From positions 248,001 through 312,000 of the forward strand of contig NZ_QICJ01000003.1 of assembly GCF_003201105.1 (NCBI RefSeq): a stretch of DNA of 64,000 nt. Direction: 5' to 3'. Below the pieces are notes generated by a model that worked only from the letters and a program-made list of their open reading frames with translations, searched no databases and was not told where the DNA came from. Shown in pieces: positions 24,764 to 50,858 of the stretch. Both the position numbers and the translations under genes were made by a program. Origin of the DNA: Dyella sp. AtDHG13 (GTDB taxonomy: Bacteria > Pseudomonadota > Gammaproteobacteria > Xanthomonadales > Rhodanobacteraceae). Each line of letters begins with the position of its first letter. Position 1 is the stretch's first letter.

Positions 24764-24831
24764 CGCGGACGCATCCGCGGCGTAGCCTTGAAGATCGTCG
24801 GCTACCTGGGCATGTCGCCGGGGGACTCGGC
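24764..24831 (-). repeat. three-hairpin leader module, copy 1
   Basis: Read on the - strand: hairpin A GCCG/CGGC, invariant GACATGCCCAG, hairpin B GTAGCC/GGCTAC with TTCAA in the loop, and hairpin C CGCGGA/TCCGCG. The same layout recurs at 45303, 48818 and 50791 with different but still complementary stems. This copy overlaps the last codons of the thioredoxin-fold gene and lies ~160 bp upstream of the radC start. Confidence 0.7.
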
Positions 24832-25590
24832 AGGCATTTCCTTCGATGGGGCGGCGTCGGCGCCCCCCGCGGCTACTAGGTCGATGGCCGACAGCAAGGC
24901 GTCACCTTCGACAGGTCCGCGCAAGAGCAGCGTCTTATCGGACTGGCGGTCTTGCAGGCGCAACGTGGGTGTGGCGGCAATCTGCTGCTGGGCGGCTTCG
25001 GCGGCCTGCGCGCGGATCGCCGCGTCGGCCGCCGCGCCGTCCACGCACTGCTGCGCGGCTGGCGTGAGGCCGGGATAACGCAAGCCTTCGGGGAGGCCCT
25101 GGCCGTCGCCGCGGGTGTGGGCGTAGACCCATTCGACGGCCTGCCAGAACGCCGCCTGGCCGCCGTGCAGGCCGACGCATTCGACCAGGCGGGCCTCGGT
25201 GGACGCCGCTGGTTCGTGCATCGCCAGCGGCAGGTGGTGCCACTGCCAAGCCACGTCGGGATGCGCGTCGATCCAGCGCTTGAGCACCGTGAAGTACGCG
25301 CGGCAGAACGGGCATTCAAGGTCGGCGTATTCGATGACCGTGAAACGCGCATCCGAGCGGCCGTAGCGCCAGGGCGGGCCGGCCGGCATCGGCGCGGCTG
25401 GCCGCGCGTTGAGCAGCGTATCGGGCTTGACCCCGCCGAGCATCCCGACGGGCAGCGTCGTCGCAGCGGGGTCGGCGCTGGGCGAAGTATCCGGACGCAG
25501 CATCGCCCAGACCACGACGACGATGAGCAGCGCCAATGCCGCGAGCCCGGCCAGGACGACGCGGGAACGATCGAGACGAGGCCAGCGCAT
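24802..25590 (-). CDS. DsbA/DsbG-like thioredoxin-fold protein of the transfer module
   Basis: 262 residues. N-terminal membrane anchor (about 10-31), then a thioredoxin fold with the redox pair CPFC at 93-96 ([18 protein letters not shown]) and a cis-Pro segment AATPTLRLQ near 208. It would act in the periplasm on Cys-rich T4SS proteins such as the TraU-like and TIGR03755 proteins. Twelve bases separate it from the upstream traC gene, so they are co-transcribed. The stop codon lies inside the leader module of the next gene. Confidence 0.88.
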
Positions 25591-25601
25591 GTCGATCTCC
25601 T

Positions 25602-28514
25602 TCAGGTCAGCGCATCGAGCGCCAAAGGCTCGATGCCGCGGGCGCGGTCGATCTTCTCGGCCACCTTGAAGGCCGCATCCAGTTCGCCGATGCCGTGCTG
25701 GCGCATCAACTGGAAGCGCTCGGCCTTCTCCTCCGGCTCGGTTTGCGCGAGCGCAAGGTACAGGCTGGGTGGCACCGCGCGGAACAGCACTTCCATGCTT
25801 TTGGAAAGGATCACGCCCTCGCTGAAACTGCCGGCCTGCTTGCGCGCCGAGAGCATCAAGGCCTTCTGCGCCGGGTTCAGCTCGCGGAAGCGCGCGATCT
25901 TCTCGACCTCATCGGGCGGCATGGACAGGCAAATCCACCACTCGATCATGTTCAGCATCGGCTCGGCCGCCTTGGGCAGGTCGTCGATGTTCTGCGTCGC
26001 CAGCCAGTACCACGCGCCGAGCTTGCGCCACATCTTGGTGATCTTGACGACGTAGGGCGCAAGCAGCGGGTTCTTGGTGATGATGTGGCCTTCGTCCGTG
26101 ACGTTGATGATCGGCCGGCCCAGGAACTGGTCGCGCTCGGCGATGTTGTTGACCGTGTTGATGAGGCTGATGTACGCGATCGACAACTGCGCGTTGTAGC
26201 CCTCGCGCGCGAAGGTCGCCAGGTCGACGATGGTGATGTCGGCCTCGGGCCAGGGCGTGCCGGGCCGATCGAACATCTGGCCGTCCACGCCCTGGCAGAA
26301 CATATCCATGGCATCGGCCATTTCCAGCAGTCGCGCGCGACGCGCTTCCGGCAGCGTGGCGTCGCGGGCGCGCTCGCGCAGCGCATCGCGCACGTCGCGC
26401 GTGAGCACGGTGCGCTTCTCGCTGACGCAGCGCTGGGCTGCGTCGAGGATGCACTGGCGGATCAGACTGCGGTCGGCACGCGTCATGCGCGCTTCTTCCT
26501 TGTCTTCGCCGCCGGTGATCATCAGGCGCGCGGTGATTTCCAGTTCACCCAGCACGTCGCGCTGCTCGTCCGCGTCCGCAGCCTGAGCCTTCTCGTCGCG
26601 GTCCTCGTCCAGGTCGTCGGCGTCGAGTGTCTGCACCTGGCTCGGTGTCTCGACGAGGCGATGCGCATCGGCGAACGGCGCGAGGCTTACGCCCGCGCCG
26701 GGCGCGAGCTTGACACGATGCACCTTCAGGCCCAGGCGTGCGGCGAAGTCGCCGAACAGGCCGAAGCTGTTGCCGGCTTCCACGATGAACATGCGCGGCC
26801 GGTAGATCGCCGTGACCTGGTTCAGGATGTTGTTCAGCGTGGCCGACTTGCCCGAGCCGGTGGGGCCGAACAGGAACAGGTGTGCGTTCATCTGCCGGTC
26901 GAGGCGGTTCAGCGGATCGAAGGTGATCGGCCCCCCGCCGCGGTTGAAGAACGTGATGCCCGGATGGCCCGTGCCCTGGCTGCGGCCCCACACAGGCGCG
27001 AGGTTCGCGGCATGCTGCGCGAACATCAGTTGCGTGTACCACTGCCGTTTGTCGAGTGCGGGGTCGAACACGCAGGGCAGCCAGCGCAGGTAGCTGTTGA
27101 GCGGCGCCACCTCGTCTTCCTCGCGCACCGGCTGCAGGCCGGCGTTGAGCATGACGTTGACCAGTTGCAGGCCGCGTGCATCGAGCTCGTCGAGGTCGCG
27201 GCCGCGCAGGTAGAACGCCAGCGCGCCGCGATAGAGCTTGTGCGCCGAGCCGATCAGGCCGCGCGCCTGCTGCACGTCTTGGCGAGTCTGCTCCGAAGCC
27301 AGCGTCTCGCCGACCGACTTCCGGGCCAGGTGGTTCAGGTGCGCTTCGAGCACGTCCTGCGGCGTGGCGACGACCGTGAGGCAGAGGATGGTGTCCTCGG
27401 GCATCTGGTCGAACAGGGCATTGACCGCATCGCCACCCTTGCGCGTCTCGCCGGTGAGGTGGCCGGTCGCTGGCGGCATGCGCAGCCGATCCATCACGAC
27501 GACCCGGTGCGGCATGCCGTCGAAGGACCAGGTGCCACTGTCCACGTCGGAGCGCGGCCGGCCGAAGAACAGGCGCTGCGCGAAGTCGCCGCCCGCCAGT
27601 TCTACCTCAGCGTCGCTCCCGCCTGCTTCCGCTTCATCGGGATAGCGCGTGAGCGCATAGAAGCGCTCGCGGTCCTCGGCGCCGGGTCCGAGCAGCGTCG
27701 GATGCGGGTTGAACCAGCGCAGTAGCCAGTCGTGGACGTCGGCTGCGGCCAGGCGCCTGGCCTTCACGCCCGCGTTCGCCAGGCCGCCGGCGAGCCGGTC
27801 GCAGATCGTGGCGAGGGCCTGCTCCGGGGACTGGCCGCGGCGGGCTGTTGCAGCGTTGGGCGAGCGCCGGTAGACCACCATGCGTACACGCCGCACTTGG
27901 CCGCGCCACGGCAGACGCGTGACCGTCGTGTCCTCGAACAGGCCTCCGGGCTTGGCGATGGCGCGCAGGTGGTGCGCGAAAAACTTCAGATAGAACTCGG
28001 TGAAGGCACTCCCCTGCGCGCGCGGGCGCACGTAGTCCCCCAGGGTGCGCAGGTAGTGGTCCCAGGTCGATTCGTCCTGGGCGTAGAGCTGCACAATCCA
28101 GGGGTGGTCATCCAGCTCGTCGAACGAATCCTGCAGCGCGTTCTCCAGTGCATCGCGTGCCCGCCACAGCCAGGCCATCTCGCGGCCTTCGGTGCCTACC
28201 GGCGCCAGCTCGAAAAAAGCCGCCACGGACTGACCGTCTTCGAGCAGCATGCTCTTGGAGCCGGGCAGGTATTCGACCCAGGGCAGCAGGTCTGCGAACG
28301 CGGGCGCGACGTCGTAGAGCCGCTGGTGGTCGGCCTCGGTCGCTGTGCCGTGCGGCCGCGCGCGACCCGGCTCGGGAATGCCGGCGTCGGCCAGCCTCTC
28401 TACGTGTCGCTCCCAGGCGTCGCAGTCGTCGCGATCCTCGTCGGGGGCTTCCACCGGCAGGGTCGAGACGAAATCAGGCGACACCGCCTTGCGCGGCCAT
28501 GGCAACCAGGCCAT
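25602..28514 (-). CDS. traC: VirB4/TraC-type conjugation ATPase (TIGR03744)
   Basis: 970 residues, full length for the PFL_4706 family. Walker A GPTGSGKSAT near residue 550, Walker B region INVTDEGHII near 803, and ATQNIDDLP downstream. It powers pilus assembly and substrate transfer at the inner membrane. The start MAWLPWPRK overlaps the upstream lipoprotein stop (ATGA-type overlap), so expression is coupled. Residues 620-660 contain an acidic, Asp-rich insertion (DADDLDEDRDEKAQAADADE). Confidence 0.95.
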   Translation of the reverse strand: MAWLPWPRKAVSPDFVSTLPVEAPDEDRDDCDAWERHVERLADAGIPEPGRARPHGTATEADHQRLYDVAPAFADLLPWVEYLPGSKSMLLEDGQSVAAFFELAPVGTEGREMAWLWRARDALENALQDSFDELDDHPWIVQLYAQDESTWDHYLRTLGDYVRPRAQGSAFTEFYLKFFAHHLRAIAKPGGLFEDTTVTRLPWRGQVRRVRMVVYRRSPNAATARRGQSPEQALATICDRLAGGLANAGVKARRLAAADVHDWLLRWFNPHPTLLGPGAEDRERFYALTRYPDEAEAGGSDAEVELAGGDFAQRLFFGRPRSDVDSGTWSFDGMPHRVVVMDRLRMPPATGHLTGETRKGGDAVNALFDQMPEDTILCLTVVATPQDVLEAHLNHLARKSVGETLASEQTRQDVQQARGLIGSAHKLYRGALAFYLRGRDLDELDARGLQLVNVMLNAGLQPVREEDEVAPLNSYLRWLPCVFDPALDKRQWYTQLMFAQHAANLAPVWGRSQGTGHPGITFFNRGGGPITFDPLNRLDRQMNAHLFLFGPTGSGKSATLNNILNQVTAIYRPRMFIVEAGNSFGLFGDFAARLGLKVHRVKLAPGAGVSLAPFADAHRLVETPSQVQTLDADDLDEDRDEKAQAADADEQRDVLGELEITARLMITGGEDKEEARMTRADRSLIRQCILDAAQRCVSEKRTVLTRDVRDALRERARDATLPEARRARLLEMADAMDMFCQGVDGQMFDRPGTPWPEADITIVDLATFAREGYNAQLSIAYISLINTVNNIAERDQFLGRPIINVTDEGHIITKNPLLAPYVVKITKMWRKLGAWYWLATQNIDDLPKAAEPMLNMIEWWICLSMPPDEVEKIARFRELNPAQKALMLSARKQAGSFSEGVILSKSMEVLFRAVPPSLYLALAQTEPEEKAERFQLMRQHGIGELDAAFKVAEKIDRARGIEPLALDALT

Positions 28515-28963
28515 CAGTAGTCCTCCAGCCGCTCGCCCGGCATTGCGTACTGCACGCGCTGGTACAGCGGGAAAACGGTGCTGTAGCCTGGAACCGGCAC
28601 GGGATCGGTGCCGGCCAGGTGCGGGAACACGTACATGACGAGATCGGGATTGGGCAGACGCCGGAACTGGCGGTAAATCTCGTTGCTCGCCGTGCGCGTG
28701 TACGCGGCGTTGCCCGCGGGCGTCGCACGGGTGTCGGCGTCGGTCAGCGGGCGCCGCAGGCTTTGGCGCGCATCGAGCAGCTGGCGTGCGGCCTGCCCGC
28801 CGACCGCGCCGCCTGCGCTACTGCCGCCGCCCGTCTCCTGCTGCCAGATGTCAAACATCGTGCTGTCGCCATGGGGCAGCAGTTTTTCCTTGCTCGTCGC
28901 GCAGCCACCCAGCACTGCGATGGTGAGCACGGTCGCCACAGCTTCAATCCAGATCCGACGCAT
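28514..28963 (-). CDS. ICE transfer lipoprotein (TIGR03751)
   Basis: 149 residues with a clear lipobox: hydrophobic leader then VLGGC, Cys at residue 21. The mature part contains LPHGDSTMFDIWQQETGG, the family signature. It probably fills the VirB7/TraV role at the outer-membrane core. It overlaps the TraB-like gene upstream by ~20 bases and the traC gene downstream by one base, so the cluster is tightly coupled. Confidence 0.9.
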   Translation of the reverse strand: MRRIWIEAVATVLTIAVLGGCATSKEKLLPHGDSTMFDIWQQETGGGSSAGGAVGGQAARQLLDARQSLRRPLTDADTRATPAGNAAYTRTASNEIYRQFRRLPNPDLVMYVFPHLAGTDPVPVPGYSTVFPLYQRVQYAMPGERLEDY

Positions 28964-30452
28964 GGGTGCCTCCGAGGGTGTGATTGACCCGGCGCCCCTT
29001 GGCGTCGTAGTCGATGAGAAGCGGACGCTCCAGGTGCACGGCGACCTTGGCGCCGGGCTGCACATACACCGCGGCGAAGGCCTGGCCGTAGAGCTTGTTG
29101 ACCCACTGCGACATCTCCTGCACGCCACCCGCCAGGATGCGGCCCATGGCCTCGTTGCCGCTGATGCCGACGGTGCCGAGCGAACCGTTGCTGTTGGCGA
29201 CTACGGCCACGCTGCCGTTGTCGGACTTGATGAGCGACGCCGCGCCGGCCCCCGCAGCGGTGATCAGTGCCTGGCTGCCCAGGTATTGCTGCGCATTGCT
29301 GCGCCGCTCGCCGCTGACGCAGGGGATGCCATAGGGATCGCTGATCCAGCCCAGGCCGCCTTGCGTGGAGCCGGTGCTGCCACCGCCGTTGCTGCCGCTG
29401 TTCGTGCCGCCACCGGTTTGACTGCCGTCCTGCCCGAGCTTGCTGTCGTCGGGCATGGTGCGGACGGTGCCATCGTTGAAGACGAACGTGACGGAGCGGA
29501 TGTTTCCGCGCACGCACGAGAGCGTCCAGTCACCCGAGGCCGTGCCGCTGACCACGGCGCCGGCCACGTCGGGAATGTCGATGCCGTTGGCCGTGAGGTT
29601 GTCGGGGCCGATCAGCACCTTGAACGGAAAGGCGTCGTGCACCGTGCCGTCGACCGGCACGCGGCCGATCAGCGCGGTCATGGCGATCGAGCCCATGAGG
29701 GTCGCATTCGTGGGTACCGTGTAGACCGGCCGGGTCGAGCTGCGCACCGCGCCTGCCGCCTGCGTACCGGCATCCGCCACGGTGTCGGCGGCATTCGACA
29801 GGGTTTTCTGCGCCGGGCCGAAGCTGGTGGGAAAGCTCGGGCTGCTGGCCGCGCTGCCGTTCTTGGCCTGCGGCTTCGCGTCATCCGGTTCCACCCAGCG
29901 TGTGCCTGCCGTGCCACTGGTGCTGCCGCGATTGCCCGCGCCCTGGCCACTACCGAAGTTCTTGCCGTCGCCGTCTTCCAGACCGAGACCCACGGGCAGA
30001 TCGGCCTGACTGCTCTTGCTGGAGAGTCCGTCGAGGCGCTTTTGCAGATCTTGCAGCAGGCCCTGGGTCTGCTGGCGGTCGTTGGCCACCTGGTCGCGGT
30101 CTTGCTGGATGCGACCGCGCTCGCCGTCCAGCGCGGTCTGGATGCGCTGATCGATCGCGCTCTCGCGGGCGCGCATGCGCTCGTTCTCGGTCTTCTGGTT
30201 CTTGTTGTCGGTGAGCGCGGTCTGCAGCTCGTTGCGCAGTTGCTTGACCTGAGCGACCAGAGTGGCGACGGTATCGCGGGGCGTATCGCCCTCGATGCCG
30301 AGTGCCTTCATCTCCTCGGGCGTGAGCTGGGTGGCGGCACCGGCCGGCGCGGGCTTGCCACTGCGATCACCCGAGAACAGCTTGATGCCGGCGAACAGCA
30401 GGAGCAGCGCCATCGGGATCAGCAGCCACTTCAGGAGCGGATTACTTTTCAT
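28944..30452 (-). CDS. TraB/VirB10-like protein (TIGR03752 / PFL_4705 family)
   Basis: 502 residues. One N-terminal membrane helix (about 8-27), a coiled coil around 70-150 (LVAQVKQLRNELQTALTDNKNQKTENERM), then a VirB10/TraB-like beta domain from about 240. The layout, an inner-membrane anchor plus a periplasmic domain reaching the outer membrane, is that of the energy-sensing T4SS scaffold. The start was set at MKSNPLLKWLLIP, which overlaps the TraK-like gene by 11 bases. Confidence 0.9.
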   Translation of the reverse strand: MKSNPLLKWLLIPMALLLLFAGIKLFSGDRSGKPAPAGAATQLTPEEMKALGIEGDTPRDTVATLVAQVKQLRNELQTALTDNKNQKTENERMRARESAIDQRIQTALDGERGRIQQDRDQVANDRQQTQGLLQDLQKRLDGLSSKSSQADLPVGLGLEDGDGKNFGSGQGAGNRGSTSGTAGTRWVEPDDAKPQAKNGSAASSPSFPTSFGPAQKTLSNAADTVADAGTQAAGAVRSSTRPVYTVPTNATLMGSIAMTALIGRVPVDGTVHDAFPFKVLIGPDNLTANGIDIPDVAGAVVSGTASGDWTLSCVRGNIRSVTFVFNDGTVRTMPDDSKLGQDGSQTGGGTNSGSNGGGSTGSTQGGLGWISDPYGIPCVSGERRSNAQQYLGSQALITAAGAGAASLIKSDNGSVAVVANSNGSLGTVGISGNEAMGRILAGGVQEMSQWVNKLYGQAFAAVYVQPGAKVAVHLERPLLIDYDAKGRRVNHTLGGTHASDLD

Positions 30453-31380
30453 CGCCGGCTCCTTGCGCTGCGCGGGGTGCACCGGCGGCACCTGCCGCAC
30501 CGGCGGCGGGCAGGTTCACGGTAGCGTCGATGCGGCTGATCTTGGGCAACAGCGAATCGGCCAGGCCGTGCCCGCGAGTGACGAGGTAGACGACCGTCGT
30601 GTCGGTCGATTGCCCGGCCGGTCCCAGGCTCGCATGCTGGAAGGTGGCCGCCACGAAGTCGCCCTGCAGGGCACGCGGGTCGAGTTCCAGCGCGCGGGCC
30701 GTGGTGTTGACGAGGCCCACCGCCGTCACCCACTGGTCTTCGAGCCGCCAGGCGGCCAGCGCGCGGGCGCGCACCGGCAGCGTCGGCAGCAGCGTGTCCA
30801 GCGCGAGCTCGCGGCGCAGGTTCACGCGAGCGATGCCGGCGACAGGCTCAACGGTGCGCAGCGGCGCGTACAGGTTCTGCGCGGCGTAGCGCGTGAGCAC
30901 GACGGCCACCGGCGTCTCGCGCCGGCGGGCGCGGGACGCAGCGTTGTCGGGTGACTCCTCGTCATCGGTCTTGGCGACCGAGGCGGCTTGCTCGCCGTAG
31001 CGCACGGCCGCTGTCTCGCCGTCGACGATGCGCACCGGCTCCAGCGCAGCCTGGCCCGCCTTGGCCGGCTCTGCGGCGATGTCGAGCAGGATCAGCGCGC
31101 CAGAATCCACGTCCTGCAGTTGCAGCCGCGTGGGCGGGATCGGCTGGGTCGCGCGCAGGTAGATCGCACCGCCCGCGCTCTGCACGCGCAGGCTCTCGCC
31201 TACCGAAGGCGGCACGCCGACGCGCACGTTGCGGTCGATGAAGACCACGCGTTCCTGGTTCACCACCAGCGGCACCGCGAGCGGCAAGCGCTCCCAGCGC
31301 AGGATTTCGACGGCGCGCGCGGGCGCGAACGCAAGAAACAAGAGGATGCCGGCCAGGGCCGGCAGCACGGTGCGCTTCAT
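30442..31380 (-). CDS. TraK/VirB9-like secreted protein (TIGR03749 / PFL_4704 family)
   Basis: 312 residues with a signal peptide (LFLAFAPARAVE, cleavage near residue 23). The mature N-terminus VEILRWERLPLAVPLVVNQERVVFIDRNVRVGVP is typical of this family and of TraK. It should be a periplasmic/outer-membrane core component with the TraB-like protein and the lipoprotein. It overlaps the VirB8-like gene upstream by four bases. Confidence 0.9.
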   Translation of the reverse strand: MKRTVLPALAGILLFLAFAPARAVEILRWERLPLAVPLVVNQERVVFIDRNVRVGVPPSVGESLRVQSAGGAIYLRATQPIPPTRLQLQDVDSGALILLDIAAEPAKAGQAALEPVRIVDGETAAVRYGEQAASVAKTDDEESPDNAASRARRRETPVAVVLTRYAAQNLYAPLRTVEPVAGIARVNLRRELALDTLLPTLPVRARALAAWRLEDQWVTAVGLVNTTARALELDPRALQGDFVAATFQHASLGPAGQSTDTTVVYLVTRGHGLADSLLPKISRIDATVNLPAAGAAGAAGAPRAAQGAGDEK

Positions 31381-39971: not shown

Positions 39972-40125
39972 TGGGTCGGCTCCCCGAGAGATGGAGCCAT
40001 CACCTTCGCCGCTGCGGTCGCGGCCAGCAGCAAACAAAGGGAATTGAGCGCTACCGGATTGCGCCCCGGTGCCACCCATGTGCAGCCCGGCCGGGGATTG
40101 GGCCAGTCATGCTAGAGTTCAGGCA

Positions 40126-40204
40126 AGGAGATGGCATTCCTCCTCAAACCGCTTCCTCCCGGAAGCTGATGATGCCTACGCAACCCCAAGGCTGGGGACG
40201 TAGG
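40126..40204 (+). promoter_or_regulatory. fluoride riboswitch 3 (crcB motif)
   Basis: AAGGAGATGGCATTCCTCCT, CAAACCGC, GGAAGCTGATGATGCCTACG. The conserved CCTACG (40175-40180) can re-pair with CGTAGG (40199-40204) around a CAACCCCAAGGCTGGGG stem. A TGCTAGAGT extended -10 lies at 40110-40118. It is more than 20 kb from the fluoride island, at the border between the T4SS and the accessory genes. Confidence 0.93.
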
Positions 40205-43286: not shown

Positions 43287-43317
43287 GGCCACGGCACCCC
43301 AGCGGGGTGACATGGCC
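43287..43317 (-). promoter_or_regulatory. leader hairpin before the 101-residue protein gene
   Basis: - strand GGCCA-TGT-CACCCC-GCT-GGGGTG-CCG-TGGCC: two nested perfect stems, then TCTTTCATTTC and the Shine-Dalgarno. Same layout as at 42879. Confidence 0.55.
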
Positions 43318-43362
43318 CCGGTGGGTGAATGAAAGCGACGGCAAGCCGTCAGGGAACAACGA

Positions 43363-44475
43363 TCAGCGGATGGTCAACACCTCGCCTCGTGTCGCGGAGC
43401 CCGGTGTCATGTCCCAGGCGCGGATCACCGGCACGAACTTGTCGGTCAGGATGCGGGTCTCGGCCACGGAGCCGTCGTCGCGTTCGGTGAACTCCGTCTG
43501 CAACGTCTTCTCCTTGTGGGTGTCGCCCTTGACGACGAGCAGGCGCCCGGTCTTCGACTTCACCACACCCGAGATCGCGCCCGCGGCCAAGGCCAGGGCG
43601 AGATGCCAGTGCGACAAGGCACGCGCCGGTGGCCGCAGCAACTGCTGTGCGGCGCCCAGGTGCGCATCGACCATCGGCCAGAGCCCTTGCAGCCGGCCGA
43701 CTTCATCGGCGAACTGCTCGGGCTCCATCGTCACGCGATAGAAGTGCTCGGGCTCGGCCGGGCCTGAAGGCACGGTGTACGGCAGGAACGGCCATTCGGT
43801 TGGCAGTTCCTCGGCTTCGGCGTCGCCTTGCCCGACCTGCAGCAGCAGACCGCGCACGGCTTTGACCGACTCCGATGCCTGGTCGCGCTGGCGAACCCGG
43901 CGGCCGAAGATCACGACCTGCCGAAACTGCTTGTCCACCGCCTGGTAGATGCGCAGTTCGGCGAAGTGCCGCGTGAGCCATCCGACCAGCTCCGCATCGA
44001 GCACGTAGCTCGGCAGGATGAACACCAGCACGCCGCCGTATTGCAGCAGCGGCAGCGTCCGTTGGTAGAACAGCTTTTCCAGCCTGGCGCGGCCCTGGCC
44101 CTGGTAGCCGATGTTGCCATCGGCGTTCTTGGCGAGATCGCCATACGGCGGGTTGAGCCACAGCAGGCCGAAGGACTGGCGCGTGATGAGCGTGTCCATC
44201 AGGTCCGCGTGCAGGCAGTGATCGACCAGGCCACGGGCATGGCGTGCCCGCTCCGCGTCGAACTCCACGGCGAACGCCTTGACCTGCTCACGCCCGAGGG
44301 CATGCGCAGCTTCGGCGATCGCCACGCCTTCGCCGGCGCAGGGGTCGAGGATGCACATCGGCCCGTTGTCAGCGGCCGCCAGTGCGGCGAGTGCTCTTTC
44401 GAGCGTGGGCTCGTCGGTCGGGAAGTACCCGTTCTTGACGAAGTTGCGGGCAAGCCGCGGGAACATGAGTGCCAT
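43363..44475 (-). CDS. DUF6094-type methyltransferase-like protein
   Basis: 370 residues. SAM-binding motif ILDPCAGEGVAIAEA near 41-55 and the NPPY catalytic motif (LLWLNPPYGDLA near 103) identify an N6-adenine/amino type Rossmann methyltransferase. The target-recognition part is unlike restriction-modification enzymes. Possible roles are protection of ICE DNA from host restriction or RNA/DNA modification. Start MALMFPRLARNF has AGGAG upstream. A leader hairpin GGACATGC/GCATGTCC precedes it. Confidence 0.82.
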   Translation of the reverse strand: MALMFPRLARNFVKNGYFPTDEPTLERALAALAAADNGPMCILDPCAGEGVAIAEAAHALGREQVKAFAVEFDAERARHARGLVDHCLHADLMDTLITRQSFGLLWLNPPYGDLAKNADGNIGYQGQGRARLEKLFYQRTLPLLQYGGVLVFILPSYVLDAELVGWLTRHFAELRIYQAVDKQFRQVVIFGRRVRQRDQASESVKAVRGLLLQVGQGDAEAEELPTEWPFLPYTVPSGPAEPEHFYRVTMEPEQFADEVGRLQGLWPMVDAHLGAAQQLLRPPARALSHWHLALALAAGAISGVVKSKTGRLLVVKGDTHKEKTLQTEFTERDDGSVAETRILTDKFVPVIRAWDMTPGSATRGEVLTIR

Positions 44476-44506
44476 GGATTTCTCCTGGTTGGGAATGAAG
44501 GAAGAT

Positions 44507-44528
44507 GGACATGCGCGCGTGCATGTCC
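44507..44528 (-). promoter_or_regulatory. leader hairpin before the methyltransferase gene
   Basis: Perfect 8-bp stem GGACATGC-ACGCGC-GCATGTCC on the - strand, followed by ATCTTCCTTCATTCCC and the Shine-Dalgarno AGGAG. Confidence 0.55.
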
Positions 44529-44540
44529 GGTGTGACGACT

Positions 44541-45197
44541 TCAGGCCACCGCTTCGAGCAGGTGCGGGCGGTGGGTCCGGTTCGCGGCCTCGCCGGTGGT
44601 GAGCACGTCCTGGCGGATCAAGCCGCCCAGCGCCTGGGTCAGCGCCGGCACGTCGATGGCGAGTCGGTGACCTTCCAGCGGCCCGAGGGCGAACGGAAGG
44701 CGGCTCAGCATCGAGCGGCTGTGCAGCAGCTCCAGCACGAGGTCGCGCCAGTGATCGAGCAGCGGCAGCGGGCAGGTGTCCTGCACCAGCGTCCACAGCC
44801 GATCGAGCCGGTGAGCGGCATCGCGTGGCAGCAAGGCCAGCGCGCTCGCGTTGGCCTTGTCGGGCCTGACGCAGCGTCGGTCGAACAGCCACAGGTTGGT
44901 CAGCGATCCGAACAAGGTGCGCCGGTAGGCGCGGGTGCTGCGCTTCTCCAGGTTCTCGACGTTGCCGACGAAGACCGGGATGACGCCGCCCTGCGCGTTG
45001 ACGATGTGGAACTGGTCCAGCCCCTGTTCGTCGCGCCCGAGGGTCAGGCGCGCCAGGAACTGCTGGACGGCGGTGTCGCGCGCCCAGATGGAGAGGAAGA
45101 CGAGATTGCCGTTCTCGTCACCGACGCAGCCGTCGGCCATGAGGTCGGGGCATTCGTCGATGCGGTACAGCGGTTTGGGAACATTGGGTACGGGCAT
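44541..45197 (-). CDS. conserved ICE hypothetical protein
   Basis: 218 residues. It begins MPVPNVPKPLYRIDECPDLMADGCVGDENGN; it also has RRTLFGSLTNLWLFDRRCV and a helical C-terminal half (RLDRLWTLVQDTCPLPLLDHWRDLVLELL). No known motif. Start is set by GAGGA upstream. About 100 bp upstream lies copy 2 of the three-hairpin leader module, so the transcript probably has a ~170-nt structured leader. Confidence 0.72.
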   Translation of the reverse strand: MPVPNVPKPLYRIDECPDLMADGCVGDENGNLVFLSIWARDTAVQQFLARLTLGRDEQGLDQFHIVNAQGGVIPVFVGNVENLEKRSTRAYRRTLFGSLTNLWLFDRRCVRPDKANASALALLPRDAAHRLDRLWTLVQDTCPLPLLDHWRDLVLELLHSRSMLSRLPFALGPLEGHRLAIDVPALTQALGGLIRQDVLTTGEAANRTHRPHLLEAVA

Positions 45198-45302
45198 GGT
45201 GATGTCCTCGATGAAGAAGGAGGCAGCACCGCCTGCATGGGCAGTGATTGCCCCATGGGGTGGAAAGGAACGTGGTGAACGTCTCGGCGAGAAGAACAAC
45301 CA

Positions 45303-45368
45303 GTGCGTCACGACGCACCGTAGCCTTGAAGGTCTGGGCTACCTGGGCATGTTGTCGGCATCGCCGAC
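45303..45368 (-). repeat. three-hairpin leader module, copy 2
   Basis: - strand order: hairpin A GTCGGC/GCCGAC, invariant AACATGCCCAG, hairpin B GTAGCC/GGCTAC with CTTCAA in the loop, hairpin C GTGCGT/ACGCAC. 106 bp upstream of the 218-residue protein start. All three stems differ in sequence from other copies but remain complementary. Confidence 0.72.
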
Positions 45369-45466
45369 GGACATGGGCGCAGCCTGATTGATGGGCGACC
45401 ACGCAGCGAGCGCAAAACGGCAGTGCGCCGTCTCCCTATTCGCAGGCAACCCGCGTCCTGAAATAG

Positions 45467-45496
45467 AAAAGCCGCCCCGGAGCGAACCGAGGCGGC
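45467..45496 (-). terminator. second terminator behind the DUF932 gene
   Basis: - strand GCCGCC-(TCGGTTCGCTCCGG)-GGCGGC followed by TTTT. It lies ~190 bp after the DUF932 stop and just upstream of the leader of the next gene. Confidence 0.75.
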
Positions 45497-45634
45497 GAAA
45501 TGGACTGCTTGGCTTCAGGGAGGAAAAAGCCAGGTTGGTGCAGCCAGAGTGAGATTGTCCGGGACCCCGTTGCTTGCCGCGCTAGGGAAGCCACTACTGA
45601 CAGTCCCGCGCGCCGGTGGCATTCGGCGCCCAAG

Positions 45635-45669
45635 AAAAAGCGGACCATGCTCTTGCGAGCAGGTCCGCT
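45635..45669 (-). terminator. terminator after the DUF932 gene
   Basis: - strand AGCGGACC-(TGCTCGCAAGAGCA)-TGGTCCGCT with an inner GCTC/GAGC stem and TTTTTC tail, 15 bp beyond the stop codon. Confidence 0.88.
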
Positions 45670-45683
45670 GGAGTTCAGGCCGT

Positions 45684-46511
45684 TCAAGCCTTCAGTTGCC
45701 GCAGGCCGTCAGCCAGCAGCCAAAGCGCCCGGTTGAGCCGCACGTTCTGGTCGATGCCTTGGACGGGCCGCGTGCTTTGCTGGCGCCCGTTCGCGGCACG
45801 GCCGCTCAGGCCACCCTTGACCAGGTTCTCCTGAACCCGATTGAAGACCGACCACAAATCCGGTCGGTTGTCGTCGAAGCGACGCGGCCGCAGGATCTGG
45901 TTCTCCGTGATCGGCAGCGCTTTGCCCGAGTCGTCGTACTTGAGCGTCAGCGCCGAGCGGGCGAAGATTTCAGCCTCGCCTTCATCGAGCGTGATGGCGC
46001 GCATGCTGTCGCGAGAATCCTGCACTTGGCCGAAGCCGTGCAGCACCTCGAAGGCGCCTTCGATGACGTGATCGGTCACGTTGCCCTTGTGCGGCACGCG
46101 CACGTCGGCCACCGTGTCGCCACAGACCAAGCCGTTCTGGCAGACGAATCTGAACATCCCCGCAAGCATCTGGTACGAACTGCTGCCGTCGTGCGAGTTG
46201 AGCAGGATGATCTCGTTGGCCTCCGCGCCATTGATCTGGCTGGCATGCCGAAGGCGCAGCATGTGCTTGGTGAACTCACGCCGGTCTTCATGGCGCACTC
46301 GGGTCTGGCACACCATGAACGGTTGGAACCCTTCCTTGCGAAGCTCGGTGAGCACCGCGGCGGTCGGTATGTAGCTGTAGCGCTGGGAGCGGCTTTCGTG
46401 CGGGTTCTCCGCGAAGATGGACGGGGCGACGGTGCGAATCTGGTCATCCGACAGCGGATGATTGGAACGCAGCACCGGCGAACGAGGGGTGAAGCGGGAT
46501 GCGAGTTGCAT
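45684..46511 (-). CDS. DUF932 / phage-plasmid-type TIGR03299-like protein
   Basis: 275 residues. TAAVLTELRKEGFQPFMVCQTRVR and ANEIILLNSHDGSSSYQMLAGMFRFVCQNGLVCG are the conserved DUF932 core, and VIEGAFEVL follows. The family is common on plasmids and ICEs; the function is unknown, though recombination or anti-restriction roles have been suggested for relatives. Start MQLASRF has AAGGAG upstream. A strong terminator follows the gene, and another lies in front of it, so it is probably a single-gene transcript. Confidence 0.88.
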   Translation of the reverse strand: MQLASRFTPRSPVLRSNHPLSDDQIRTVAPSIFAENPHESRSQRYSYIPTAAVLTELRKEGFQPFMVCQTRVRHEDRREFTKHMLRLRHASQINGAEANEIILLNSHDGSSSYQMLAGMFRFVCQNGLVCGDTVADVRVPHKGNVTDHVIEGAFEVLHGFGQVQDSRDSMRAITLDEGEAEIFARSALTLKYDDSGKALPITENQILRPRRFDDNRPDLWSVFNRVQENLVKGGLSGRAANGRQQSTRPVQGIDQNVRLNRALWLLADGLRQLKA

Positions 46512-46582
46512 GACGATCTCCTTGGAGGAAAGAGCAATGGGCATCGACGGGCGGGCCGCCGATGCGCACAATTGCGGGGACG

Positions 46583-46609
46583 AAAAAAATGGCCCTGGGA
46601 TACAGGGCC
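46583..46609 (-). terminator. terminator between the 86-residue gene and DUF932
   Basis: - strand GGCCCTG-TATCC-CAGGGCC followed by ATTTTTTT. It ends upstream transcripts (46658-46918) or, if read from an upstream promoter, would attenuate DUF932. Confidence 0.85.
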
Positions 46610-46657
46610 GGACGGGCGGCTAACGAAGAGGAATGCAGGCCTGGGTAGGCCTGTGGT

Positions 46658-46918
46658 TCAGTCCGGCTCGAACTGCCGGCTGTGTGGGTTGAAGCGCAGC
46701 GCCTGCGCACCCGTGCGGACCGGCGTGAAGCCTTCCAGGTAGATGCGGCCCAGGTACAGGTCGCGATAGGTCAGTGCCTGCCGCGCCTGCACCTCCGTGA
46801 GGCCGCTGGCGACGAAGTGCTCCAGCAGCTCGTCGTCGGAGGACACGTCGTTGTTCGACAACTGGTCTTCGACGAAGGCAAGCAGAGAGACCGAGAGCGA
46901 TGACAGGATGGTGTCCAT
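46658..46918 (-). CDS. small conserved ICE protein
   Basis: 86 residues, acidic, helical. SVSLLAFVEDQLSNNDVSSDDELLEHFVASGLTEVQARQALTYRDLYL suggests a helical bundle of the kind seen in small regulators. No DNA-binding motif is clear. It lies eight bases after the 131-residue gene and is co-transcribed with it; the terminator at 46583 follows. Confidence 0.72.
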   Translation of the reverse strand: MDTILSSLSVSLLAFVEDQLSNNDVSSDDELLEHFVASGLTEVQARQALTYRDLYLGRIYLEGFTPVRTGAQALRFNPHSRQFEPD

Positions 46919-46925
46919 ATGAACC

Positions 46926-47321
46926 TCACCCTGCCGTCGGTTTCTCGGCGCCACCCATTGCACCGAGCCCTGCGTGGTAGCTGTGCACCCTTGCGCGCCA
47001 GGTGGCGCATTGCTCCGGCGCCGTCGCGAGAAAGCGCAGCGGGCACGAGTAGTAGTAGGGATGCTCGGCTTCGACGAGGGACTTGTAGCCCCACTCGTTG
47101 CCCGAGGCCTCCAGCAGGTCGCAGTAGATGATGCAGACCGACTCGCCGGCCGCGAGGCCTCTCAAGCCTGGCTGCTTGGCGGTGATGCGCACCACGCTCC
47201 ACAGCACGTCGTCGATCAGCGCGTGGTCGATGACTTCGCGGCGCCCGTGATCGGTGTCCTCGGTTGCGGTCAGCTCGCGGATCAGTTGATCGCGCGAGGT
47301 GCGGACATAGGTCCAGCCCAT
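46926..47321 (-). CDS. DUF6927-like conserved ICE protein
   Basis: 131 residues. It starts MGWTYVRTSRDQLIRELTATED and contains HALIDDVLWSVVRIT and VCIIYCDLLEASGNEWGYKSLVEAEHPYYYSCPLRFLA, a pattern of small proteins carried by plasmids and ICEs. No catalytic motif. Its Shine-Dalgarno is AGGAG. The leader (47346-47375) has a hairpin around CCCCCGGCGGGG. Confidence 0.75.
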   Translation of the reverse strand: MGWTYVRTSRDQLIRELTATEDTDHGRREVIDHALIDDVLWSVVRITAKQPGLRGLAAGESVCIIYCDLLEASGNEWGYKSLVEAEHPYYYSCPLRFLATAPEQCATWRARVHSYHAGLGAMGGAEKPTAG

Positions 47322-47422
47322 GGGATTTCTCCTGTGACAAGGGCCGGAGTTCCGCCCCGCCGGGGGAAGAACCCCGGCGGGTGGTGGAATGCCGCTTGCG
47401 CGGCGGTGGATCAGGCGACTGG

Positions 47423-48034
47423 TCAGGCGGTAGCGAGGTGCCAGTCCTGGGACAGCGGAGCGAACTCGTAGCCCAGCTCGCCGAGGCGGTCGCGCTGCTG
47501 ACGCAGGACGCGGCGATCCACGGTGGCATCGAGCTTGACGGTCTCGCCCAGCGGCCAGAGCGTGCCGAACAGCGCTGCGTCGTCCGCATCGGCAGATGCC
47601 GCGGGTGACGTGGCGGCCGGTTCGCTGCCGAACGGCGTGGTATCGACGAGGGGATCGCGCGACTTGCGGGCCTTGCCTCGGGCGGGTGCCTTCGGCGCGG
47701 CGGGCGCAGGGGCCGGCGTTTCCTCATCGAGCGGATCGACTTCCTGCGGACTCAGCCGGCGGGCGTCGTCGCGGCTCAGGGCGTCGATGTTGGACAGCGT
47801 CATCCCGCCCAGGTGGGCGCGGATTTCGATGACCATGCGACCGTTGGCGTTGTACGTGGACGGACGGATTTCCGCGATGATGAAATCGCCCTCGTACTTG
47901 CCTTCGGTGTACTGGTCCAGCTCGGCGTTCTTCACGACGAACTCGCCGATCGAGGTCGCCAGGCGGCCGACATTGAAGTCGCCGTTCCTGCCGTGGATGG
48001 TCTTGATGGCCAATTGGCCGGGGATGGTGATCAT
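47423..48034 (-). CDS. DUF3275 family protein
   Basis: 203 residues. The N-terminal ~80 residues (MITIPGQLAIKTIHGRNGDFNVGRL...GDFIIAEIRPSTYNANGRMVIEIRAHL) form the DUF3275 domain; a disordered Ala/Pro-rich linker (about 100-150) leads to a C-terminal segment FGTLWPLGETVKLDATVDRRVLRQQRDRL. Found beside DUF3577 in PFL/SPI-7-type ICEs, as here. Possibly an OB-like nucleic-acid-binding protein; function not known. Confidence 0.87.
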   Translation of the reverse strand: MITIPGQLAIKTIHGRNGDFNVGRLATSIGEFVVKNAELDQYTEGKYEGDFIIAEIRPSTYNANGRMVIEIRAHLGGMTLSNIDALSRDDARRLSPQEVDPLDEETPAPAPAAPKAPARGKARKSRDPLVDTTPFGSEPAATSPAASADADDAALFGTLWPLGETVKLDATVDRRVLRQQRDRLGELGYEFAPLSQDWHLATA

Positions 48035-48060
48035 GAAGGTCTCCCGCTGACGAAAGAGAC

Positions 48061-48083
48061 AAGGCCCCGTGGGGTGGGGCCTT
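48061..48083 (-). terminator. hairpin between DUF3577 and DUF3275
   Basis: - strand AAGGCCCC-ACCCCAC-GGGGCCTT, then GTCTCTTTCG. An 8-bp perfect stem five bases beyond the DUF3577 stop and ~26 bases before the DUF3275 start, so it may act as terminator for one and attenuator for the other. Confidence 0.65.
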
Positions 48084-48088
48084 GCGGA

Positions 48089-48661
48089 TCAGAACGACTC
48101 GGCAACGGCCAATGCGGGGGCATCGGCAGCGGCTTCGTCGGCAGCTTCGGCAGCGGGCTGGGTGGCCTGCGGTGCAGCGGCTTGGCGAGCAGCGGGCGCT
48201 TCGGTCGTCGCGGGGAGATCCGGGGTGCGCGCTTCACCATCCTGGCGATCGTCGGTTTCGGTCGTCTTGGGCTCGGCCTTGTAGACGAGCTTGCCATCGA
48301 CCTTGATCCAGCTGATGAACAGCAGGCGGGCCTTGAAGCTCACCCCCTGTTCGCCGGCACGCTTGCCCTTGGAATAGGTGAAGGTGTCGGCCCACAGGTC
48401 GCCGAGGCGAAAGCCGATCATCACCTTCTTCTCGGCATCGACGGCCTCGATGCAACGGCGCACCAGGTGCTGCGCTTCGGAGCCCGAGACGCGCGTGTCG
48501 AAACGGACGTAGGACACGTCGTCGCTGGGACCGTTGAGCGCCGCGATGTCGCAGGCCAGGAAGGCGTCGCCTTTCTTGGGCTTCACTTCGCGGATGCGAT
48601 TGAGATACCCGAGGCCCGTGATGTGCAGGTCGAAGTAGGACTTGTCGGTGGAACTGGTCAT
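48089..48661 (-). CDS. DUF3577 family protein (STY4534-like)
   Basis: 190 residues. SYFDLHITGLGYLNRIREVKPKKGDAFLACDIAALNG is the DUF3577 signature, and YVRFDTRVSGSEAQHLVRRC follows; the last ~60 residues are an Ala/Pro-rich tail ending ALAVAESF, reminiscent of SSB-like proteins with a conserved acidic-Phe tip. A nucleic-acid-binding role is a guess. The long leader (421 bp to the previous gene) holds a hairpin (48691-48718) and copy 3 of the three-hairpin module. Confidence 0.87.
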   Translation of the reverse strand: MTSSTDKSYFDLHITGLGYLNRIREVKPKKGDAFLACDIAALNGPSDDVSYVRFDTRVSGSEAQHLVRRCIEAVDAEKKVMIGFRLGDLWADTFTYSKGKRAGEQGVSFKARLLFISWIKVDGKLVYKAEPKTTETDDRQDGEARTPDLPATTEAPAARQAAAPQATQPAAEAADEAAADAPALAVAESF

Positions 48662-48690
48662 GGTGAATCTCCTGAGAAAAGAAGCGGAGA

Positions 48691-48718
48691 CACACCCGAC
48701 CCAGGCGGGGAAGGTGTG
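48691..48718 (-). promoter_or_regulatory. leader hairpin before DUF3577
   Basis: - strand CACACC-(TTCCCCGCCTGGGTCG)-GGTGTG, with CCC/GGG nested, followed by TCTCCGCTTCTTTTCTC and AGGAG. Same layout as at 43287. Confidence 0.55.
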
Positions 48719-48817
48719 GAACCCCCGCGTGGGTTGAAGGAACAGCTTGGTGGCATCACCATCGGTCGGAACCGATGGACGTTCGCGCAAGGATGCCGGT
48801 GCGAACTGGTCGATCAA

Positions 48818-48886
48818 CGCGGTCGAAAACCGCGCCCTAGCCTTGAAGATCGAGGCTAGCTGGGCATGCTGCTGACGGGTGTCAGC
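48818..48886 (-). repeat. three-hairpin leader module, copy 3
   Basis: - strand order: hairpin A GCTGAC/GTCAGC, AGCATGCCCAG, hairpin B TAGCCT/AGGCTA with TTCAA in the loop, hairpin C CGCGGT/ACCGCG. 157 bp upstream of the DUF3577 start. The ~200 bp between this module and the upstream terminator contain no gene. Confidence 0.72.
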
Positions 48887-49055
48887 GGAACATGGGGTAA
48901 GCGTGGCGTCGGCATCGCGCGAGCGCGAGCGGCAATGGGCATCGGCGCCTTCCCGCATTGGCGGGGCGTCTGTTGTGCTTGCGGCCGTGCAGGCGGTTCC
49001 GGTTCTCCCACCGCTGCTTCGGCAGCGCGCGGCGACTGCGATTCACCAAATGAAA

Positions 49056-49075
49056 GAGCCCCCCGAACGGGGCTC
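49056..49075 (-). terminator. terminator after the DUF5983-like gene
   Basis: - strand GAGCC-CCGTTCGGGG-GGCTC followed by TTTCATTT, nine bases past the stop codon at 49084. Confidence 0.75.
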
Positions 49076-49083
49076 AGGAAGGG

Positions 49084-49797
49084 TCATTCATCGAACACGG
49101 GCAGTCCGTCGAGCACCGGCGCATCGGCGTCGAACACCAGCATGCGCACGTCGGCGAGCGCCGCCAGGCGCAGCACCTCGACCAGGCAATCGGGCATGCC
49201 CTTGCGGCGGTGTTCCCGATCCAGCCGCTTGGCGGTCGTGCCTTCGACCTTTCGCAGGTTCGCATCCGTCCAGGGCGTGGCGATCAGCTTCACGCCGATC
49301 GCCTGGCTGTATGGAATGCGGAAGGCGATGAACATGAACGTCGTCGGCGTCGCGATGTCCGCCAGCTCGGCGAGGAAATGCCAGGCGGCTTCGGTGATGT
49401 GGCCGCTGCTGATCTCCCAGCACCGGCTGTAGTGCCCGGTGTCGAAGCGCAGACGCCGAACCACTTCGCGCGCAGCCTCGTCCGAATAGGTATCGGCCAC
49501 GTGCAGCGGCTTGCTGTTTTCTTCGGCCATGACGGCGTAGACCACGGTGCGTGCGATGCCGTGGCTTCGGCATTGCGCGTCCAGCTCCGGCGGCACGTCC
49601 TGGCCCTCGGTGATGAGGGCGAAGTCGTCGCAGAAGATGCACGGATAGCGCACGACCTGGCTGTCCGGCAAATGCGACTGCGAGGCGTGCAGCGGCTGGT
49701 AGGTCAGTGGGCAGTCGTCGTCATAAGAGATGGCGATCAGCCGCTCGACCGACAGGCCGTCATAGCCACGGACGAAAGGATTGTTGGAGTGGGACAT
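49084..49797 (-). CDS. DUF5983-like ICE protein
   Basis: 237 residues. MSHSNNPFVRGYDGLSVERLIAISYDDDCPLTYQPLHASQSHLPDSQVVRYPCIFCDD includes a possible metal site (CIFC), and EEDRFDTGHYSRCWEIS-type segments (FDTGHYSRCWEISSGHITE) follow near residue 120. No enzyme motif recognised. It has its own terminator and a leader hairpin (49827-49846), so it is a single-gene transcript. Confidence 0.72.
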   Translation of the reverse strand: MSHSNNPFVRGYDGLSVERLIAISYDDDCPLTYQPLHASQSHLPDSQVVRYPCIFCDDFALITEGQDVPPELDAQCRSHGIARTVVYAVMAEENSKPLHVADTYSDEAAREVVRRLRFDTGHYSRCWEISSGHITEAAWHFLAELADIATPTTFMFIAFRIPYSQAIGVKLIATPWTDANLRKVEGTTAKRLDREHRRKGMPDCLVEVLRLAALADVRMLVFDADAPVLDGLPVFDE

Positions 49798-49826
49798 GGG
49801 ATTTCTCCGGCAGAGGATGGCCGAGG

Positions 49827-49846
49827 CAATCCCCTGCCGGGAATTG
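49827..49846 (-). promoter_or_regulatory. leader hairpin before the DUF5983-like gene
   Basis: - strand CAATTCCC-GGCA-GGGGATTG (one G-T pair), about 30 bases before the start codon. Member of the recurring leader family. Confidence 0.5.
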
Positions 49847-49910
49847 AACCCCAGCGAGTGGATGAAATGGGAGCCAGGCGGCTGGCGCCCAGGAAGGACA
49901 GGTCTGAAAG

Positions 49911-49950
49911 AAAACGAGGGACATGGCGCCTTGCAGCGCGCATGTCCCTC
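49911..49950 (-). terminator. terminator after the 130-residue gene
   Basis: - strand GAGGGACATG-(CGCGCTGCAAGGCGC)-CATGTCCCTC with an inner GCGC/GCGC pairing, followed by GTTTTCTTT. Confidence 0.87.
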
Positions 49951-49990
49951 ACGGGGTGGAAAAGCAGTTCGGTGGCAGGCCGGGGTCGGC

Positions 49991-50383
49991 TCACCAGCCG
50001 TTGTAGTTCAGCGTCAGATCCGCGATGACCTGGCGCCGTTCCAGATCGAGGCCGCCCAGGTCGGACAGGCCCTCGAAGCCGCAACGCTTGAGCATCGCGC
50101 CTCCCTCGCGGGAGTTGTAGAAGCTCACCATCGCGGACAGGAACATCCGCTGGCCGCTGCTCAGCACGCCGAGGGCGTCGTTGAGCAGCAGCAGGTTGGG
50201 CCGCAGATCCCACTTGGACTTGGCGCGCTGCAAGCCTTCGCGGGTGCCGTCGCCGAACCATTCGGCACCGGCGATCTCCGCACCGCGCTTCCAGGCCTCG
50301 AAGAAAGCTTGGGGCGCACGGCTGAAATGCGCGTCTTCACGCGCGAGCTGGTCGTACAGCTCCTGACGCAATGGCAGGTTCAT
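49991..50383 (-). CDS. conserved ICE hypothetical protein
   Basis: 130 residues, helical, soluble. It contains LRQELYDQLAREDAHFSRAPQAFFEAWKRGAEIAGAEWFGDGTREGLQRAKSKWDLRPNLLLLNDALGVLSSGQRMFLSAMVSFYN. No known motif. The start has AGGAG upstream. It is 25 bp after the 82-residue gene and shares its transcript; a strong terminator follows. Confidence 0.72.
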   Translation of the reverse strand: MNLPLRQELYDQLAREDAHFSRAPQAFFEAWKRGAEIAGAEWFGDGTREGLQRAKSKWDLRPNLLLLNDALGVLSSGQRMFLSAMVSFYNSREGGAMLKRCGFEGLSDLGGLDLERRQVIADLTLNYNGW

Positions 50384-50408
50384 GAGTAAGCTCCTGGGGG
50401 AAGGGAAA

Positions 50409-50657
50409 TCAGGGGTGGCTGCGCTGCGTCCAGGCGTCAGTGGCCAGGGCGCGCTGCGCGGCTTCGGGGCTCGGGAAATACTCGACGGACTCCCGTGAAA
50501 CCGGGCCTTCGTCGTCGTGCGTGCCGATGTAGTGGCCGGCCGCGCTGCGCAGGACTTGCAGCGGCAGGCGCTTGCCCGTGTAGGCCAGCGCCAGTGCGCC
50601 GCTGCGCACCGATGCCGCGGAAGATGCGGCGGAAGATGCGGCGGAAGGTTCAGACAT
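50409..50657 (-). CDS. small conserved ICE protein
   Basis: 82 residues. A Ser/Ala-rich N-terminus (SAASSAASSAASV) precedes LALAYTGKRLPLQVLRSAAGHYIGTHDDEGPVSRESVEYFPSPEAAQRAL, which looks like a small beta-alpha domain of plasmid proteins. It is the first gene of a two-gene unit with 49991-50383. The leader contains copy 4 of the three-hairpin module and an ATCCCC-A-GGGGAT palindrome at 50689-50701. Confidence 0.7.
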   Translation of the reverse strand: MSEPSAASSAASSAASVRSGALALAYTGKRLPLQVLRSAAGHYIGTHDDEGPVSRESVEYFPSPEAAQRALATDAWTQRSHP

Positions 50658-50790
50658 GACGTGCTCCTTGAAGGATCGAGGAGCGCGCATCCCCAGGGGA
50701 TCGGCTTCCCCTCGGGTGGTTGAGAAAATGCACCGTCGCCGAAAACGACGAGCGTCCGCGGTGGTCGGTGCGAGGCGGACGGGTTTGGTC

Positions 50791-50858
50791 AGCGCGGCGA
50801 GCCGCGCTGCAGCCTTGAAGACCGAAGCTGCCAGGGCATGGTGCTGACGACCGTCAGC
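50791..50858 (-). repeat. three-hairpin leader module, copy 4
   Basis: - strand order: hairpin A GCTGAC/GTCAGC, ACCATGCCCTG, hairpin B GCAGC/GCTGC with CTTCAAG in the loop, hairpin C AGCGCGGC/GCCGCGCT. 134 bp upstream of the 82-residue protein start. Hairpin C is the longest of the four copies. Confidence 0.7.

Follow-up and report, generated by a model that had tools for sequence, protein, structure and literature searches.

Four copies of one structured module lie on the minus strand of the 64,000-nucleotide stretch of DNA analysed here (the window), among ICEclc/PFGI-type conjugative element genes that include TraD, a TIGR03744 ATPase, ParB, SSB and topoisomerase III. What is this module, does it work as RNA or as DNA, and what could it do for the genes behind it? 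An earlier note on this DNA had placed the copies at 24764, 45303, 48818 and 50791, and all four were found there, each with the invariant CATGCCC(A/T)G and with TTCAA in the loop of hairpin B. As that note also described, the stems differ in sequence and still pair in every copy; in copies 1 and 4, cmscan flags some pairs of hairpin A as non-standard.

The module is a radC RNA

The module had been taken for an element not known before, and comparison with Rfam overturned this view. In a cmscan of the whole window against Rfam 15 (4227 families), all four modules matched RF01754 ("radC RNA") over its full length (model 1-149), with 83.4-118.4 bits against a gathering score of 40 bits and with E-values of 5.4e-22, 8.8e-21, 1.4e-19 and 4.8e-14. 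These four were the only RF01754 copies found in the genome in a search at E 0.001. Given this match to a motif catalogued in 2010, the four-copy module is not new; the window adds further members to a catalogued RNA family, whose structure is refined here. In passages of their paper, Weinberg et al. (2010) describe the radC motif as certainly RNA and probably cis-regulatory, with ambiguous riboswitch status (PMC2864571). Our literature search found no published function for radC RNA. STAXI (RF01728) had no match at gathering within the window, and at the modules, scanning the window and the ICEclc stretches described below with the full library gave, apart from radC RNA, just one weak sub-threshold eukaryotic match. 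A core pattern with fixed loop length gave 0 matches in the window because the true loop length differs from that in the pattern, and CATGCCCNG alone was at chance level (8 matches; 17 of 100 shuffles had as many or more).

Copy 1 (24699..24848, minus strand; 113.1 bits, model 1-149) is of the full type with both pseudoknots and precedes radC (24113..24607, minus strand), which encodes 164 aa with a RadC-like JAB domain (PF04002, E 1.6e-38); matches of this gene to NF000642 and TIGR00608 fall under the cut-off. The 5' part of copy 1 overlaps the 3' end of an upstream DsbA-like ORF, whose stop codon is at 24804-24802. Copy 2 (45241..45385, minus strand; 83.4 bits) combines hairpins A, B and C with the loop pairing but has no a/b pseudoknot half (as aligned with classes 2 and 3), and precedes a 218-aa gene (44541..45197, minus strand). 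Copy 3 (48753..48904, minus strand; 118.4 bits), again of the full type, precedes the gene for a 190-aa DUF3577 / STY4534-family ICE replication protein (48089..48661, minus strand; NF040584, 199.7 bits; PF12101). Copy 4 (50730..50876, minus strand; 107.8 bits), also of the full type, precedes an 82-aa gene (50409..50657, minus strand). Neither the 218-aa nor the 82-aa gene has an NCBIfam or Pfam match. The spacing of 105-160 bp from module to gene proved accurate, as the start codons lie 106-157 nt beyond hairpin C (24764 to 24607, 45303 to 45197, 48818 to 48661 and 50791 to 50657). The unit size of 66-69 nt was too small; the element spans about 150 nt, with a pseudoknotted 3' half in copies 1, 3 and 4.

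Upstream of copies 2 and 3 are terminator-like hairpins with T-rich tails (45496-45471 and 49075-49056, minus strand), and new transcription units may therefore start there.

The window also carries four fluoride riboswitches (RF01734, 44.9-56.3 bits), at 2778-2861 (+), 6148-6228 (+), 16270-16205 (-) and 40118-40185 (+). The first three surround an apparent fluoride-stress cargo block, with enolase, two MutS-domain proteins, an Na/H exchanger, Usp, DUF190, a HIT protein, an AFG1 ATPase and CMAS, with a TraI_2 gene (774-2732) on one side and the conjugation genes, which begin at 20460, on the other (ORF starts uncurated). The fourth is found within the ICE core before a 91-aa ORF that has no Pfam match; its strand is opposite to that of the conjugation genes.

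Interleaved helices covary

Four copies alone are an unsafe basis for covariation, and it was judged on an enlarged sample. Alignment A2 contains 64 distinct full-type modules, including three window copies; A3 leaves out most DUF3577-class modules, because strand b of that class, described below, is shifted by one column in A2. The covariation that the earlier note had read from its stems holds in this larger set, with two-sided changes at 30 of the 42 named pairs in A2 against a shuffle mean of 12.7 and with 0 of 500 shuffles as high. The named structure is paired in 86.4 percent of A2 cells, compared with 80.7 percent in shuffles and 25-43 percent with partners slid. Five measures of structure, taken in A2 and in A3, were each reached by 0 of 500 shuffles.

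The inner part of hairpin A, hairpin B and hairpin C are paired in 98.2, 99.0 and 90.7 percent of A2 cells, with two-sided changes at 3, 6 and 6 of 6 pairs, respectively; the columns of hairpin D are misplaced in A2 (34.4 percent paired), which makes its pair count there meaningless. Beyond these hairpins, the 5' part of the hairpin-B loop pairs with a strand 3' of hairpin C. This loop pairing is found in 94.9 percent of A2 cells, with two-sided changes at 4 of 4 pairs, and in 89.0 percent of A3 cells; in copy 3 it joins 48853-48848 to 48815-48810 (pseudoknot 1, 48810..48853, minus strand). In the 3' half, strand b lies between a and a', and its partner b' lies beyond hairpin D, so that a/a' and b/b' interleave and form pseudoknots. 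The second pseudoknot of copy 3 (48752..48806, minus strand) pairs a at 48806-48801 with a' at 48786-48781, and b at 48797-48792 with b' at 48757-48752. The a/a' helix is 100 percent paired in both alignments and includes one pair that in A2 shows changes on both sides in 26 of 64 cells; b/b' is 99.5 percent paired in A3, and in A2, with its one-column shift in the DUF3577 class, the figure is 76.9 percent.

A further test counted parsimony co-changes on a FastTree tree of A2. Among 9009 column pairs, 5 were Bonferroni-significant (line at 5.6e-6), and 4 of them fall in the structure, three in hairpin B and one in b/b'. No single a/a' or loop pair passed Bonferroni; the best reached 1e-5 and 5e-5 for a/a' and 3e-4 for the loop. 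The fifth significant pair, A2 columns 80-117, lies outside the proposed structure.

The 270-aa and 218-aa classes (2 and 3, including copy 2) lack the a/b half and keep the loop pairing in 92.7 percent of cells, with little covariation (two-sided changes in 1 of 4 pairs). In this subset, 2 of the five whole-structure measures are not above shuffles (66 and 485 of 500 as high).

Read on the sense strand, G-U cells outnumber A-C cells by 84 to 21 in A2 (counted without the hairpin D and b/b' helices) and by 71 to 20 in A3, although by column pairs the difference is only 17 to 13 and 19 to 13.

One orientation, many genes

Alignment found 501 DUF3577 relatives in named genomes, and the best 80 of these 501 loci were searched with an nhmmer model built from 55 unique modules. 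All 80 loci carried the module, with 224 matches in total, and 224 of 224 lay sense to the DUF3577 gene; in 79 of these best 80 of 501 loci a module stood directly upstream of DUF3577, the exception being locus L066. All loci together gave 306 module records and 212 unique modules. An assigned start was available for 200 of the 212 unique modules, which fall into 13 downstream-gene clusters, 4 of them single copies; the other 12 have no start. The distance from module start to start codon was 207-232 nt in the 82-aa class (43 copies), 181-192 nt in the 270-aa class (36), 185-189 nt in the 218-aa class (17) and 222-242 nt in the radC class (9); it was wider in the DUF3577 class, 233-394 nt (70 copies).

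Sense orientation and covariation support the RNA half of the earlier suggestion of a conserved RNA or cruciform. The cruciform half is disfavoured because the covarying helices interleave, G-U cells exceed A-C cells and all 224 matches are in sense.

RF01754 was found in 6 of 398 sampled phylum genomes, in 7 of 13 genomes of the genus of G356 and in 8 of 233 of the window's own family (each count including the own genome or centre); the two large genome searches used stricter filters, under which weak matches are lost. The STY4534 family was matched at E 0.001 in 9 of the 233 own-family genomes, over its cut-off in 4, and all 8 own-family genomes with RF01754 are among these nine. The ninth match is partial, covering model positions 35-123 in a 93-aa open frame. 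Five plasmid records matched the leader of copy 3, two of them over at least 80 percent of its length.

The sequences upstream of the module differ between classes

All 21 unique copies of classes 5-8, which come from Pseudomonadaceae elements, have TTGAC 25-27 nt before the module start. Inspection by eye adds a -10-like sequence at the edge of the module, and the two are spaced as in a promoter. Classes 0-3 have a different upstream block, searched with a pattern assembled by eye and present in 40/70, 34/43, 33/36 and 16/17 copies, respectively, against 0/21 in classes 5-8. This block is a candidate activator site, possibly the published 27-bp motif discussed below. It resembles CAATGCGG...TGCCGATTnCC, is conserved upstream of modules in ICEclc-type elements and is seen in the window at about 45.4, 48.95 and 50.9 kb.

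Class 4, the class before radC, has neither upstream context. Instead, all 9 of its copies contain the 3' end of an upstream ORF that encodes a known domain; in the window, the ORF ending inside the copy 1 module encodes a DsbA-like thioredoxin protein. We used the ORF overlap of class 4 only, since chance long ORFs are common in GC-rich DNA (35 of 70 copies in class 0). Placement within coding sequence and behind unrelated promoters is not what one expects of an operator or promoter element. The varied promoter-like contexts, together with the overlap with an upstream reading frame, thus argue for an RNA rather than an operator.

A predicted hairpin over the Shine-Dalgarno sequence

RNA folding of the last 95 nt of each leader in the window gave two hairpins, E and F, in 4 of 4 copies, and the Shine-Dalgarno sequence was fully paired in all four, whether these 95 nt or the whole leader was folded. 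The predicted hairpin F covers GGAGG in copy 1 (24611..24640, minus strand; 95-nt fold), GAGG in copy 2 (45189..45237, minus strand), GGAG in copy 3 (48656..48701, minus strand) and AGGAG in copy 4 (50656..50690, minus strand), and in copies 2, 3 and 4 it also takes in part of the start codon.

The best start-site stem had a mean score of 19.3 at 79 non-redundant module genes and 15.1 at 198 control starts, which were script-picked, uncurated ORFs (P 1.4e-13). Stems at 68 of the 79 module genes lay above the control median, but only 14 of 79 lay above the control 95th percentile. In the ensemble, Shine-Dalgarno pairing rose modestly, from 0.73 in controls to 0.82 at module genes, and exceeded 0.8 in 30 of 79 module genes and 60 of 198 controls. 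An earlier stem test on 140 non-redundant pairs gave 19.4, compared with 14.1 when partners were shuffled and 15.2 when they came from another class, with 69 of the 140 pairs above the 95th percentile of shuffles. In the DUF3577 class (class 0), an anti-Shine-Dalgarno strand with a loop of 11-20 nt is kept in 23 of 25 leaders.

Modules and promoters on ICEclc

ICEclc was located among 398 Pseudomonadaceae genomes by means of the inrR promoter as given in passages of PMC2892462. Genome G768 holds two identical copies of this promoter, in which the T sits 25 nt ahead of the start codon, in agreement with the publication, and is presumably P. knackmussii; a third, unrelated match lay in G921. In our calibration the inrR start given in the literature and three ORF names are off by 188, and because of this difference positions are given by ORF.

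Five RF01754 matches lie on the 60-kb core of ICEclc, before ORF81655, ORF84835, ORF88400, the RadC ORF and an ORF near 89247. The end of the RadC ORF, at 58416, is 16 from the name ORF58432, which makes this assignment likely, if inexact. There was no RF01754 match in 18 kb at the int end or in 8 kb beyond the core; the search covered the core and these two stretches, which leave a gap of about 21 kb between them. Beside a tRNA close to the end of ICEclc in G768 there is an sX8 sRNA (RF02227, 98.3 bits; L144:666-747, minus strand).

Eight bistable ICEclc promoters with a common 27-bp motif are described in passages of PMC9286271. The published motif-to-start distance of 152 bp had made it look likely that the radC core was this motif. 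RF01754 modules were found at three of the eight promoters, 81655, 88400 and, by the likely assignment, 58432, and none at the other five, whose regions all lay inside the searched stretches. With modules at 3/8 of its places and two further modules elsewhere, the 27-bp motif is a different thing from the radC core, as judged by position alone, and we rejected their identity.

The two modules elsewhere stand at 84835 and near 89247, where the same paper, in the passages concerned, reports RNA-seq coverage that rises upstream and cloned fragments without subpopulation activity; it offers transcript processing or too-small fragments as explanations (PMC9286271). This combination leaves room for a processing role.

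The earlier note held that transcripts starting downstream of the module would speak against it, and on this point the published evidence is mixed. According to passages of PMC2892462, primer extension gave a weak product about 250 bp ahead of where ORF81655 starts, and 5'-RACE upstream of 58432, 81655 and 88400 gave no specific product. The ORF81655 module begins 235 nt before its start codon, and the primer-extension product fits a transcript start at the 5' edge of the module. As described in part of PMC9286271, deleting the module-led regions ORF81655-75419 and ORF88400-84388 had no measurable effect on the transfer of ICEclc to an isogenic recipient.

A probable translational leader and its alternatives

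Taken together, the evidence makes it very probable that radC RNA acts at the RNA level. We favour a fuller model, to which we give a probability of roughly 0.57 from sequence comparison, in which radC RNA is the transcribed leader of ICE genes and acts in cis at the RNA level with translational control. The suggestion of a cis-regulatory RNA of ICE genes thus gains support and is extended by the sense hits, the 13 gene clusters and the covarying pseudoknot. Comparison of sequences demonstrates family membership, interleaved covarying helices, sense orientation, association with many genes and the anti-Shine-Dalgarno strand of the DUF3577 class.

We infer that radC RNA is transcribed in this host. 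Its compact 5' domain consists of hairpins A, B and C and the hairpin-B loop pairing, to which most clusters add the second pseudoknotted domain, and the 3' hairpin that follows could pair with the Shine-Dalgarno sequence. This start-site hairpin, predicted by folding, probably regulates translation. The 5' domain would most likely sense a signal (a protein, an RNA or a small molecule), and the two domains of the leader would presumably communicate such that ribosome access to the start site is altered. One RNA type could in this way co-tune several ICE genes beneath the level of the transcriptional switch. A more specific version, in which a double-pseudoknot translational switch governs a dedicated ICE regulon of 13 clusters beneath an ICEclc-type bistable switch, is doubtful at present. 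If true, it could for example hold recipient-establishment genes silent in the donor until a transfer-linked signal releases them. Any part in recipient establishment, hinted at by the neighbours RadC, SSB and DUF932, is speculation.

The alternative that carries most weight, though we think it rather unlikely, is a stability or processing element, whose structured 5' end would protect or mark the cleaved end of an ICE transcript with no translational control. It would suit the modules at ICEclc ORF84835 and near ORF89247, where the part of PMC9286271 concerned describes rising coverage without fragment activity, and also the class 4 module, sitting within the end of an upstream ORF. However, it does not account for start-site stems that exceed controls or for the conserved anti-Shine-Dalgarno strand of class 0, and the full-library scans report radC alone at the modules, bar the weak eukaryotic match noted above. 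Transcription attenuation is very improbable. A T-rich stretch comes after a hairpin in copy 4, with terminator-like matches at 50751-50731, and other class-1 copies look similar, but rows of class 0 and class 4 inspected by eye have no comparable U-run after the module.

Readings in which the element acts as DNA are about as improbable as attenuation. A double-stranded operator or promoter element, such as a BisDC-responsive ICEclc promoter motif, draws on the radC modules at three of the eight bistable promoters with the 27-bp motif; against it, five motif promoters have no module, while the modules at 84835 and near 89247 go without bistable activity (from the promoter passages of PMC9286271), and neither the interleaved covarying helices nor the three different upstream contexts suit an operator. 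The other DNA reading is a single-stranded or cruciform element. A Frpo-like ssDNA promoter, for example, would express establishment genes as the ICE enters in single-stranded form. Strong inverted repeats in one orientation throughout and the neighbours RadC, SSB, DUF932 and topoisomerase would agree with such an element, and the G-U excess alone does not exclude ssDNA. Nevertheless, the TTGAC box of the Pseudomonas copies has ordinary promoter spacing and ends at the module edge, and the relevant passages of PMC9286271 concern ICEclc transcription measured in cells that carry the element. We retain the translational leader as the best explanation.

With a defined structure and a start-site hairpin that can be tested, the function of radC RNA and the post-transcriptional control of conjugative elements become accessible to a reporter experiment. 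ICEclc, with its five copies, has a laboratory system in Pseudomonas putida.

Comparison with known systems

The modules share with radC RNA RF01754 their sequence, hairpins A-D and the position upstream of proteobacterial genes, including radC. They differ from the RF01754 model as printed by cmscan, which is without pseudoknots and ends before the start-codon hairpin; cmscan cannot print pseudoknots. Passages of the 2010 paper say that its authors sought extra pairs by mutual information (PMC2864571), and part of the CaCoFold paper places radC/RF01754 among families with additional covarying pairs (PMC7657543); the original radC RNA alignment may already hold the pseudoknots. The ICEclc transfer-competence promoters, with their 27-bp motif and BisDC, belong to the same element family and adjoin a radC module in three of eight cases, but the other five are without one, and modules also lie at two places away from these promoters. 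STAXI RF01728 is likewise a repeated structured motif near DNA-manipulation and mobile-element genes (from passages of PMC2864571), and differs in having no gathering-level match in the window.

Translational riboswitches and leader autoregulators have the layout predicted here, a conserved folded domain with a hairpin over the Shine-Dalgarno sequence behind it. The radC leaders differ from them in that one RNA type stands before many unrelated genes.
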